DNA from: Bradyrhizobium septentrionale
GTDB lineage: Bacteria > Pseudomonadota > Alphaproteobacteria > Rhizobiales > Xanthobacteraceae
Direction: 5' to 3'
NCBI RefSeq assembly: GCF_011516645.4
Contig: NZ_CP088285.1
Span: 2,622,501-2,686,500, forward strand
DNA: 64,000 nucleotides
In this document: in pieces, positions 9,524 to 28,265 of the stretch
Layout: each line of letters starts with the position of its first letter
Numbering within the stretch: the first letter of the stretch is position 1
The notes under the pieces: generated by a model
What the model was told of the DNA's origin: nothing
Database searches by the model: none
Seen by the model: the letters and a program-made list of their open reading frames with translations, nothing else
Made by a program: the position numbers and the translations under genes

Positions 9524-9648
9524 TTCCCCTGAAAGGGGGAAGGTCGGGATGGGGGTCAGCCACGGGCGACGCTGTGTGTGCGGAGAGAGCAAATCCCCAC
9601 CCGCTTTGCTCTGACGAGCAAAACAACCTCCCCTTTTCAAGGGGAGGT
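9524..9648. repeat. Interspersed repeat, family A, copy 1
   Basis: Imperfect inverted repeat of about 125 bases. The left arm is TTCCCCTGAAAGGGGGAA, the middle contains CCCCACCCGCTTTGCTCT, and the right arm CTCCCCTTTTCAAGGGGAG is itself palindromic. Related copies lie at 33255-33371 and 62143-62266. The right arm ends five bases before the stop codon of the DUF2794 gene. Confidence 0.9.
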
Positions 9649-9652
9649 GGGG

Positions 9653-10024
9653 CTACACCACCGACAGCTTGCGGTCGATCACGAACAGCACGCGTTCGAG
9701 TTCATGGCCGCGACGCAGGATCAGGCCCGTCGCCGAAATCACGCTGTACATGCCCTGCTTGCGCGCAAGCCGGGGATCCTTCTCGATCCGGTAGATCGGC
9801 ATTTCGGACGCGCGCCGAAACACCGAGAACACGGCACGGTCCTTCAGGAAGTCGATCGCATAGTCGCGCCACTCGCCGTCGGCGACCATGCGGCCGTAGA
9901 GATTGAGAATGCGGTTGAGCTCTAGTCGATTGAAGGTCACGCGGTTGGGCTGCGGGATCGCGGCGGCGGGGCGCGCCGCGGCGCGGCTCCCGCTCGGATC
10001 AGTGTCCTCCGAGATCAGACTCAT
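9653..10024 (-). CDS. DUF2794 domain-containing protein
   Basis: Small protein family of unknown function found across alphaproteobacteria. The 123-residue form starts MSLISEDTDPSGS and has an unstructured first 35 residues. The conserved core follows, including RLELNRILNLYGRMVADGEW and DYAIDFLKDRAVFSVFRRA; the latter resembles a short beta-rich domain. An ATG at 10093 would add 23 residues of low conservation. No membrane or signal segment is seen. No operon partner: a repeat lies downstream and a noncoding stretch upstream. Confidence 0.88.
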   Translation of the reverse strand: MSLISEDTDPSGSRAAARPAAAIPQPNRVTFNRLELNRILNLYGRMVADGEWRDYAIDFLKDRAVFSVFRRASEMPIYRIEKDPRLARKQGMYSVISATGLILRRGHELERVLFVIDRKLSVV

Positions 10025-10277
10025 CGAGCGCCTCCTGTCATCCCAGTGACGATCATGGTCCGAAAGCCGGTCCCCCCTTTTCGGGATCGTCACAACGCTG
10101 ACATGATTGCGCTAAGCGAGGGGGCCTGCAAGGGGCCATTCGCGATGCAACCGGGTCTTAACCACGGTCTGGCGCGGCAGATTATCCGGAAAACCAGAGA
10201 GTCACGGGAACGTTAGCGGAATCATATTGCTGCCCCACTTCCGCCCATCGCCCGCCCCGCTGCCCTGCGAAAAGAAA
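10025..10277. other. Intergenic stretch upstream of the structured RNA
   Basis: No convincing coding sequence on either strand. It holds the 5' region of the DUF2794 gene (minus strand) and should contain the promoter of the RNA that starts near 10278. I could not assign -35 and -10 elements with confidence; an AT-rich AAAGAAAAT at 10271-10279 sits next to the RNA start. Confidence 0.5.
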
Positions 10278-10410
10278 ATCCTGCGTTGGCCCGGTCCTTT
10301 CGGTTCCGGATTCCTCAGCCCCCAGCCCCCCGGGGCCGTCGGGATCGGGCCTGTTCGCAGGGGAGTTAATCCCAACACTGGGCCAACGAAAGTTGGTCCT
10401 TTTTGTTTTT
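10278..10410 (+). ncRNA. Structured small RNA, possibly 6S RNA
   Basis: CGTTGGCCC at 10284-10292 is perfectly complementary to GGGCCAACG at 10380-10388, closing a domain of about 105 nt. Inside lie a CCTG-TTCG-CAGG tetraloop hairpin, a GGGA/TCCC hairpin and a C-rich/G-rich helix. A strong intrinsic terminator follows at once and shares the 3' arm. The size (about 105-130 nt), paired ends and C/G-rich internal helix are compatible with an alphaproteobacterial 6S RNA, but the usual zapA/ygfA neighbours are absent. The RNA call is firmer than the family name. Confidence 0.6.
10380..10410 (+). terminator. Rho-independent terminator of the small RNA
   Basis: Eight-base stem GGGCCAAC (10380-10387) and GTTGGTCC (10392-10399) with a GAAA tetraloop and one G-U pair, followed by TTTTTGTTTTT from 10400. 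No protein gene on the plus strand ends nearby, so it must end a noncoding transcript. Confidence 0.88.
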
Positions 10411-10571
10411 GGGAGCCTGCTCAAGGCACGCGCGATCGAGACGCGCCCAGAGGCTCACCGCGTTCGTTTCAGTATATCTCTGGATGCATGTCGGTCGCCT
10501 CCCGCGTGGGCTGCACGACAAACTGCGTGCCGCCCAATGGCGCGACCGACGGAAGGTGGCGCCGCAAGGTG
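10411..10571. other. Gap between the small RNA and the DUF1223 gene
   Basis: No credible gene on either strand; short frames here look random. It follows the small RNA terminator and ends at the DUF1223 stop codon. Confidence 0.6.
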
Positions 10572-11333
10572 CTAGCGAAGCGAGGTGAAGGCGGCGCCGA
10601 GCATCGGGCCCGGCTTGTCGCGATTGCCGTCCTGGACGTACACCGCCGCGGCATCGACGCCATCGCGCGTGATGTTCTCCAGCGGCACGGTCCAACTCCC
10701 GGACGAACCGTTCCAGTCACCGACCTTGAGGAGATTGCGCACCACGTTGTGGTAGGTGATCTCCTGGCCGCGGTTCTCGCCGCGCGCGATCGAGATCGGC
10801 ACCGACTTCGAGATCGAGCAGATCCAGACTTCGCCGCGCGACACTGCGGGCGACTTCGACGCGGCCACCGAAACGTTGATCTGCTTGCCGGTCAGCGTCA
10901 GCGTCACCGGCACCGACATCACGCTGCCGCTCTTCTCGGTATCCTTGATGGCGCTCTCGATGCTCGCCCGATCGCTGCCGATCACATGCGCGGAGCCGTT
11001 GATCACGGCCTGCGGCGTGTAGACGTCGCGATCGCCGCGCATGTGCGAATAGGCCTTCTGGCGCGCGCTGAAACGGGAATCGGCCAGCGTGTCCTTCCAG
11101 CCGAGATAGTCCCAATAGTCGATCGGCATGCTCAGCGCGATGACGTTGGGGTCCTTGGCGAGATCACCGATGATCTTGTCCGCGGGCGGACAGGACGAAC
11201 ACCCCTGCGAGGTGAAGAGTTCGACGACAGCACGCGGATCGGCGTGAGCGGGGCGGATGACAGCAACGATCGCGCAAATACCAAGAGCGCTGGACCATCG
11301 CGAGATCGAGTTATAGGCCATCATCGCTGTCAT
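10572..11333 (-). CDS. DUF1223 domain-containing protein (thioredoxin-like, exported)
   Basis: DUF1223 proteins carry a thioredoxin-like fold with a C-x-x-C pair; function unknown. With the start at 11333, the N-terminus is a signal peptide (MTAMMAYNSISRWSSALG through the RPAHA cleavage region). The mature part starts DPRAVVELFTSQGCSSCPPA, so the CSSC motif sits where thioredoxins have theirs. This suggests periplasmic redox or heavy-metal-related activity. The reading frame stays open to 11459, but that extension is AT-richer and holds a GCGGCC/GGCCGC hairpin typical of a leader, so I reject it. Starts at 11324 and 11321 are also possible. Confidence 0.88.
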   Translation of the reverse strand: MTAMMAYNSISRWSSALGICAIVAVIRPAHADPRAVVELFTSQGCSSCPPADKIIGDLAKDPNVIALSMPIDYWDYLGWKDTLADSRFSARQKAYSHMRGDRDVYTPQAVINGSAHVIGSDRASIESAIKDTEKSGSVMSVPVTLTLTGKQINVSVAASKSPAVSRGEVWICSISKSVPISIARGENRGQEITYHNVVRNLLKVGDWNGSSGSWTVPLENITRDGVDAAAVYVQDGNRDKPGPMLGAAFTSLR

Positions 11334-11497
11334 ACTGCGAACCAGTCGTGATGATTTCCATCCGTAATTGTACGGAGCATGAAGTTTGTCCCTGAACTTG
11401 CGTGCCCCAAAACGCGAGAAAGCGGCCCTGTCATAGGCCGCCTTCTTTTTAGTCGCCACTCACTAAGCGGTGAGGCACCGATCACAAATCCGCGTTA

Positions 11498-11568
11498 GAG
11501 CATGATCCGGAAAAGTGTGAACCGGTTTCCCCCGCGACAACGCAAGCGTTTGCGCGGAGATCATGCTC
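11498..11568. repeat. Interspersed palindromic repeat, family C, copy 1
   Basis: Begins GAGCATGATCCGGAAAAGTG and ends GATCATGCTC, with an inner CGCAAGCGTTTGCG palindrome. Relatives lie at 47251-47296 and 48684-48760. It sits 11 bases beyond the acnA stop codon. Confidence 0.9.
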
Positions 11569-11579
11569 AAACAAAGGGC

Positions 11580-27960: not shown

Positions 27961-28265
27961 ATAGGAGGCGGGCGCCGTTTATATGGGTGGCACCGGCGAA
28001 TTCGGAACCAATCCGACAAAATGAAGTAATTTCAGCGCCTTACTGGGCATGCCGTGCCGATCGCGGCGAAACTTTCCTTGACTTTCCGCCCCCGGCAGCG
28101 TTTAACGCCGCCACTTTCTCGGAAAGATCCGTCTTTTCGACCCGCCCACTGGTCCTGGAGACCAGAGGCCAACGCCCGACAGCGCGATGCGCCCTCGGGC
28201 GCGAAAGTGTTTGGACCATCGTCCTGGGTACACCGTCTTGGCACGGTGCCAAGGCGGACTATGTG
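27961..28265. other. Intergenic region upstream of ffh
   Basis: No credible gene. It contains an imperfect hairpin CCGTCTTGGCAC...GTGCCAAGGCGG (28231-28258), a CTGGTC/GACCAG hairpin near 28150 and a possible -35 TTGACT near 28078. These may belong to the ffh or MBL gene promoters. A family G repeat follows. Confidence 0.5.

Follow-up and report, generated by a model that had tools for sequence, protein, structure and literature searches.

The small RNA (sRNA) BjrC174 has been described earlier as abundant in Bradyrhizobium japonicum USDA 110, a description credited to Madhugiri et al. 2012, and promoter activity has been confirmed at its mapped start site (PMC4842269). This activity, measured in exponentially growing cultures, exceeded that of all other tested start sites for which no promoter motif had been mapped (PMC4842269). 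ChvR of Caulobacter crescentus is a small RNA driven by ChvI, and it pairs with the chvT mRNA via stem-loops (PMC6237742). GsrN of Caulobacter has an exposed cytosine-rich 5' loop that is predicted to pair with G-rich mRNA sites (PMC5869019), a property to which the loop described below may be likened. We have analyzed a stretch of 64,000 nucleotides (nt) from Bradyrhizobium septentrionale (contig NZ_CP088285.1), referred to here as the window, with the structured RNA at 10278-10410 as the subject. This feature is the gene of BjrC174, with very little room for doubt. BjrC174 itself is already known; the new and testable part is a link to ChvI and a wide range. Taken as a whole, the locus is best explained, at somewhat better than even confidence, as the gene of a ChvI-driven small RNA that would act through a C-rich loop.

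GsrN and ChvR may serve as functional parallels, and neither is shown here as a relative of BjrC174. If ChvI control is correct, BjrC174 would resemble ChvR in being ChvI-driven and in pairing with mRNA through a stem-loop, as an analogy with no homology shown. The two differ in range and position. ChvR is described as specific to C. crescentus and lies upstream of recF/gyrB (PMC6237742), whereas BjrC174 lies between the genes of a DUF2794 and a DUF1223 protein. The GsrN of Bradyrhizobium is predicted near the stress-response locus (PMC5869019). In contrast, the neighbors of BjrC174 are the DUF2794, DUF1223, aconitase and GNAT genes, and no general-stress locus is found nearby. An EcfG-type promoter would be expected of a GsrN gene; its motif, GGAAC-N15-18-GTT, is absent from the plus strand at 10100-10290.

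Identity and fold of the RNA

The Rfam model RF02355 (BjrC174) matches the plus strand of the window with 181.9 bits, compared to a gathering cut-off of 45. The match is full-length and uncut (model positions 1-201), and a genome search found BjrC174 as a single copy. The hairpin and the terminator of the family are both present at the window locus and both supported by covariation. A sequence-only reading of this stretch had described the RNA as unannotated, which is incorrect because RF02355 covers 10201-10403. The suggestion from the same reading that the RNA may be a stand-alone small RNA ending at the terminator is supported, as the same RNA in B. japonicum is the abundant one with confirmed start-site promoter activity (PMC4842269). 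No stated function of BjrC174 was found in a literature search in which PMC4842269 was the sole paper found and subscription journals were mostly uncovered.

Folding places the pairs of the main hairpin at 10281-10285/10356-10360 and 10288-10298/10341-10351, followed inward by an apical stem (10301-10309/10330-10338) and a loop at 10310-10329. The terminator at 10380-10399 has eight pairs and a GAAA loop, and is followed by TTTTTGTTTT. The whole 133-nt stretch has a minimum energy of -68.8 kcal/mol (z = -4.76; 0 of 200 shuffles as low), and this strong structure is due to the hairpin at 10281-10360 and not to the closing stem discussed in the next section. In an alignment of 61 relatives, 96.5% of the cells of hairpin, apical stem and terminator are paired, compared to 92.1% after shuffling, and 16 pairs have two-sided changes, compared to 8.5; neither value was reached in 500 shuffles. 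This alignment (A1) was made from 61 of 68 close loci, with L044 and L045 omitted as repeats of other rows and L061, L063, L065, L066 and L067 as truncated or without a clear terminator. A second alignment (A2) holds 60 of 127 loci, chosen for spread from the 94 that remained after removal of near-duplicates. It should be mentioned that three of the 130 core loci (L075, L105 and L106) have no terminator within the limit used. We are highly confident that this RNA has a long, conserved hairpin, C-rich in its apical loop, which coexists with an intrinsic terminator.

The apical loop, YCAGCCCCC(C)AGCCCC with a nearly invariant CAGCCCCC(C)AGCCCC, varies little while the stems diverge. In predicted ensembles, the probability of this loop being unpaired has a median of 0.898 over 130 family loci (minimum 0.385, and >0.8 in 117 of the loci) and of 0.86 over 38 order-level loci. 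At one locus, L104 in genome G012, the apical loop has three CAGCCCCC units instead of two, as if the 8-nt unit had been duplicated.

The proposed closing stem and 6S RNA

The sequence-only reading had pointed out that CGTTGGCCC (10284-10292) is perfectly complementary to GGGCCAACG (10380-10388), and that the latter is also the left arm of a terminator with a GAAA loop and a T-rich tail (10380-10399). Both observations are accurate to the letter. It was further proposed that this 9-base-pair (bp) match is a closing stem competing with the terminator; in one of the two options given, CGTTGGCCC would pair with the left arm in one state, the terminator would form in the other, and the balance between the two would be regulated. 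Such a switch is extremely improbable. The CGTTGGCCC segment sits in the stronger hairpin at 10281-10360, which had been overlooked. Perfect 9-bp inverted repeats are not rare in the GC-rich DNA here: among 2000 dinucleotide shuffles of the 133-nt stretch, 130 hold at least one, as do 200 of 2000 random stretches of equal length from the window. The 9-bp match is not shown to exceed chance or to close the RNA.

Comparison of the 61 relatives gives the switch some support, since slid versions of the proposed helix have just 13-47% of their cells paired, compared to 85.8% for the helix itself. The two segments are therefore really complementary in most relatives, with all nine pairs possible in 12 of the 61, yet the pairing is not kept by joint change. 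The value of 85.8% is identical to the shuffled mean (262 of 500 shuffles at least as high), and the covariation score of 0.127 compares to a shuffled mean of 0.132 (358 of 500 at least as high). Of the two stems in question, the terminator does covary, together with the hairpin, and the CGTTGGCCC pairing remains at shuffle level. A change from G to A in the 5' segment is found in 16 of the 61 sequences; the hairpin partner is U in all 16, and the terminator base can pair in three and not in the other 13.

Folding also argues against the switch. The window RNA with the helix forced has an energy of -50.7 kcal/mol, compared to -68.0 kcal/mol, a cost of 17 kcal/mol, and its pair probability is at most 1.6e-11. 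In folds of growing transcripts, the main hairpin has formed in full while the terminator arm is still to be transcribed. A probable reason for the cross-match is that both GC-rich stems hold the self-complementary GGCC, since any two such stems would cross-match. Neither of two features of a riboswitch or attenuator is found: the alternative of two mutually exclusive stems is not conserved above shuffle level, and there is no downstream gene on the same strand to control. The earlier statement that no plus-strand gene follows within 1 kb stands, as no credible one is seen. The next gene, encoding the DUF1223 protein, is on the minus strand (10572-11459), and a plus-strand frame of 374 aa (10227-11351) is mostly the antisense of this gene. 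With the covariation, folding and chance-repeat tests all contrary, the switch was rejected.

The same reading had named 6S RNA, which binds RNA polymerase, as the best-known candidate. BjrC174 is likewise a stand-alone RNA, abundant and with a long hairpin. However, a search with the Rfam 6S model (RF00013) gave no match over the cut-off at this locus or elsewhere in the window, and the 6S gene of this genome is located at G000 C2:3998975-3999135, with 84.8 bits. The presence of the genome's own 6S gene elsewhere removes the basis for this assignment. What is conserved in BjrC174 is the C-rich apical loop, and the predicted fold has no large central bubble. A 6S or 6S-like RNA at this locus has a negligible chance of being correct, and was rejected.

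Phased GCC repeats upstream of BjrC174

Upstream of the hairpin is a helically phased GCC-N8-GCC-N8-GCC (10232-10256); the plus strand of the window has no second triple of this kind. A wider upstream pattern drawn from the alignment has one match in this genome. Upstream stretches of 130 nt were compared for 174 of 176 loci, L124 and L190 being too near a contig end. The triple is present in 106 of these 174 (50 close-family, 31 other family, 21 order and 4 class loci), compared to 0 of 635 other stretches of family loci, 8 of 3480 shuffles and 3 of 984 window stretches, one of the three being the box itself. The distances between GCC triplets peak sharply at 11 and 22. A distance of 11 is found in 52 of 67 close-family, 39 of 62 other family, 28 of 37 order and 8 of 8 class loci, and one of 22 in 67, 49, 26 and 6 of them, respectively. 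It is noted that anchored counts pick the best register and are biased upwards, so reliance was placed on the counts given here. The triple is located 57-76 nt before the loop, with 53 of the 106 cases at 60-61 nt. Among the matches listed from named genomes, 62 of 77 loci have the triple; these species partly overlap the first sample, and 3 of 80 loci with <150 nt upstream were excluded.

The promoter of the divergent DUF2794 gene was rejected as the source of this upstream block. The sRNA has the inverted orientation in 4 of the 130 loci, where the block stays upstream of it. The block is also present at order-level loci whose retrieved stretch shows no DUF2794 match (e.g. L207 and L208). 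Because the block moves with the inverted sRNA, it belongs to the small RNA. With a start near 10278, the box would be at approximately -46 to -22, where an activator replacing the -35 element would sit. Such an activator would fit the missing promoter motif at the BjrC174 start (PMC4842269). Promoter prediction gave no sigma-70 match at the -10-like stretch 10264-10271. The first ~75 positions of RF02355 look like promoter, which suggests that this part of the family model is not transcribed.

The resemblance of the box to a known regulator site is to ChvI. For S. meliloti, a ChvI consensus that has direct repeats of GCC (N-GCC-N8-GCC) was reported by Ratib et al. 2018 (as given in PMC9731502), and direct repeats are often bound by OmpR-family regulators (PMC9275681). 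GCC-N8-GCC is found in the promoter at the window locus. An 11-bp putative ChvI motif has also been presented, along with doubts about it (PMC3687685), and a 14-bp BvrR motif is shown as a figure in PMC9491525. The genome has a row of genes for a response regulator, a kinase and an HprK-like protein (chvI-chvG-hprK). The kinase has PF13755 and PF13756 domains, and its best NCBIfam match is ChvG, with 471.7 bits, below the cut-off of 740 for that Caulobacter-specific model. The best family and structure matches of the response regulator are generic, and it is called ChvI because of the gene arrangement. From the motif and the gene row, we consider it somewhat likely that BjrC174 is under ChvI control.

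In the mechanism that we propose, RNA polymerase would start near 10278, and ChvI, an OmpR-family regulator, would bind the GCC repeats as a tandem site in the -35 position. Envelope or acid stress, sensed by ChvG-ChvI, would lead to synthesis of BjrC174. The RNA would fold into the hairpin plus the terminator, with no switch between the two, and the unpaired loop CCUCAGCCCCCAGCCCC could then pair with G-rich sites of target mRNAs, such as ribosome-binding sites.

Targets and mode of action

By analogy, it is fairly probable that the loop of BjrC174 pairs with mRNA. The 18-nt complement of the loop, with up to three mismatches, has 23 matches in its own genome, compared to 4 for a control pattern. 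Of the 23, one is the BjrC174 gene, 13 belong to three repeated sequences (seven, three and three copies), and nine are single sites; no convincing start-site target was seen among the 20 that were viewed in context. Ribosome-binding-site patterns complementary to the loop are not enriched in 13 genomes (17 matches, compared to 15 for the control). The duplex energies of 3 porins and 13 TonB receptors have a mean of -17.3 kcal/mol, compared to -15.1 kcal/mol (standard deviation 4.0) for 43 window frames, with several of the frames or starts probably wrong, and there is no clear signal for porins and TonB receptors as targets. No BjrC174 target was found among own-genome complements, ribosome-binding-site patterns, porins or TonB receptors.

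A sequence repeated seven times in the genome (L135, L137, L143, L149, L150 and two places of G000) includes GGGGGCTGGCGGCTGG, which is partially complementary to the loop. The flanks are identical in the five copies seen, which suggests that the repeated sequence is a mobile element.

BjrC174 could alternatively act by binding a protein, with the C-rich loop serving as a sponge, e.g. for an RNA chaperone or Rho. Over the order, the loop varies little and is kept more strictly than pairing with a few mRNAs would seem to require, and the lack of enriched mRNA targets is in line with a protein partner. However, pairing of C-rich loops with G-rich mRNA sites is what has been predicted for GsrN (PMC5869019), and the stem-loops of ChvR pair with the chvT mRNA (PMC6237742). 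Protein binding instead of mRNA pairing is considered unlikely.

Weighing ChvI control

Besides the results of the target searches, several points weigh against a ChvI-driven RNA acting through its loop. The ChvI consensus used here is second-hand, and the paper that quotes it derived a different ChvI motif, TTGC-N3-GCAA, in Caulobacter and asks for validation (PMC9731502). The 400 nt upstream of chvI are without GCC-N8-GCC on both strands. Among the upstream stretches, GCC-N8-GCC is missing in 47 of 174 loci, and these loci are related sequences, not independent ones. In 10 of 130 loci, the loop has a predicted probability of <0.6 of being unpaired. No ChvI binding or expression datum for BjrC174 was found, and the literature search returned no paper linking ChvI, sRNA and Bradyrhizobium; with subscription journals mostly uncovered, publication elsewhere is possible.

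Some of these points would also fit a BjrC174 that is constitutive or controlled by another OmpR-family or unrelated regulator, with the GCC repeats binding something other than ChvI. The sole link of the site to ChvI is a trinucleotide repeat, and no such repeat precedes chvI itself. The conserved upstream stretch also has TCAY and TTC elements, which are unmentioned in the ChvI consensus as quoted, and the promoter activity reported for BjrC174 came from exponentially growing cultures (PMC4842269). What argues for ChvI is the exact N8 spacing, together with the match to the quoted S. meliloti consensus (PMC9731502), and the presence of the chvIG-hprK row. Another regulator or constitutive expression is a serious possibility, though a doubtful one.

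Distribution

Rfam describes BjrC174 as an sRNA of Bradyrhizobiaceae. In contrast, our searches place the hairpin in a large part of the order, and in some genomes outside it as well. The Rfam model matches 173 of 198 genomes of the same family at E <= 0.001, 167 of them over the Rfam cut-off. A second model was built from 60 family loci; its E-values are rough, and chance alone would account for approximately 3 to 4 matches at E <= 0.01 in the order search and for as many in the class search. At this threshold, it matches 183 of 297 order genomes, in 91 of 122 genera, with 11 of the 183 from the window's own family. It also matches 28 of 385 class genomes, three of which (G000, G024 and G250) belong to the same order; 8 of the 25 outside the order are below 1e-4. 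The eight best loci outside the order have a similar 5' end, loop and upstream block.

The loop is retained, in one form or another, in all 38 order-level loci viewed outside the family, with slight departures in L195, L209, L210, L211 and L213, though the search model itself includes the loop. Of 19 order-level loci outside the family that came from the order search with the 60-locus model, one (L186) was left out. The Rfam model matches 31 of the 38 more weakly, comprising 17 of 18 at E <= 0.1 (7 over the cut-off) and 14 of 20 at E <= 0.5 (none over). No other Rfam family overlaps these loci at the same two thresholds (18 loci at E <= 0.1 and 20 at E <= 0.5). A sub-threshold Brucella match is present elsewhere in L202 and does not overlap the BjrC174 locus. 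An exact-pattern scan of named genomes found at least 119 stretches, 80 of them listed. Among the matches listed, most are from Bradyrhizobium, and Afipia, Tardiphaga, Rhodopseudomonas, Rhodoplanes and Pseudolabrys are also present. As judged from these sequence matches, the BjrC174 family is far wider than its name implies.

Genomic neighborhood and feature coordinates

The gene order is stable over the 130 loci, with the two flanking genes of Table 1 accompanied by aconitase in 110 and GNAT in 88; the absences include contig ends. In four loci of one genus, g23 (L093, L096, L101 and L106), the BjrC174 gene is inverted between DUF2794 and DUF1223, and the upstream block still precedes the RNA. 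Two other genomes of this genus (L107 and L121) keep the usual orientation.

Table 1. Features at and around the BjrC174 locus, in window coordinates
Feature	Position	Strand	Basis or remark
DUF2794 gene (PF10984), divergent neighbor in 125/130 loci	9653..10093	-	neighborhood comparison
RF02355 (BjrC174) match, full extent	10201..10403	+	181.9 bits; first ~75 positions probably promoter rather than transcript
Helically phased GCC-N8-GCC-N8-GCC (GCC at 10232, 10243, 10254), predicted tandem ChvI-type box	10232..10256	+	~-46 to -22 from inferred start
TGCGAAAA, weak -10-like stretch (close-family consensus TGCGA.AA)	10264..10271	+	inferred from alignments
Inferred transcript, ~125 nt	10278..10403	+	start inferred from -10-like stretch; end from terminator
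Main hairpin, 5' side, includes CGTTGGCCC	10281..10298	+	pairs with 10341-10360; Rfam match, folding, covariation
Apical stem, 5' side	10301..10309	+	pairs with 10330-10338; folding, covariation
Apical loop AUUCCUCAGCCCCCAGCCCC, almost invariant and mostly unpaired in predictions; candidate site for pairing with targets	10310..10329	+	alignments, ensembles
Main hairpin, 3' side	10341..10360	+	folding, covariation
Linker containing UUAAUCCC (GUUCAAUCCCC in many wider-family relatives)	10361..10379	+	sequence, alignment
Intrinsic terminator (stem 10380-10399) and U-rich tail	10380..10410	+	terminator prediction, covariation
DUF1223 gene (PF06764), convergent neighbor in 115/130 loci	10572..11459	-	neighborhood comparison

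Locus L230 (JAUEPE010000074.1), in a record titled Frankia sp. RB7, has BjrC174 with DUF2794, GNAT, DUF1223 and aconitase genes whose products are 80-92% identical to the window proteins; this record is probably a mislabelled or contaminated genome. In L193 (1608-1711) and L183 (1608-1694), weak second model matches on the minus strand (24.4 and 18.8 bits) overlap the 3' end of the first match, and are perhaps the GC-rich terminator only. Within the window, two repeats were noticed by eye. A palindromic sequence at 11498-11570 (GAGCATGATCCGGAAAAG ... GAGATCATGCTC), between the DUF1223 and aconitase genes, resembles a dispersed repeat, and GC-rich inverted repeats (CCCCCTGAAAGGGGG; CCTCCCCTTTTCAAGGGGAGG) are present at 9525-9650 between the GNAT and DUF2794 genes. 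The Rfam 'ffh' sRNA motif RF01793 matches at 28158-28209 (+) with 60.7 bits.

Implications

As defined in Rfam, the family RF02355 seems to cover too small a range and to extend too far at the 5' end. In its fullest form, our proposal is that BjrC174 may be the small-RNA arm of ChvG-ChvI in much of Hyphomicrobiales and in some neighboring orders. Three phased ChvI sites would replace the -35 element, the double CAGCCCC loop would repress envelope mRNAs, and BjrC174 would be an older and far wider counterpart of the Caulobacter ChvR. This combined proposal is tentative and falls somewhat short of probable. ChvG-ChvI is required for symbiosis in S. meliloti and for the association of other alphaproteobacteria with their hosts (PMC6237742). 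The phased GCC box would provide a specific and cheap test of whether BjrC174 belongs to the ChvG-ChvI system.
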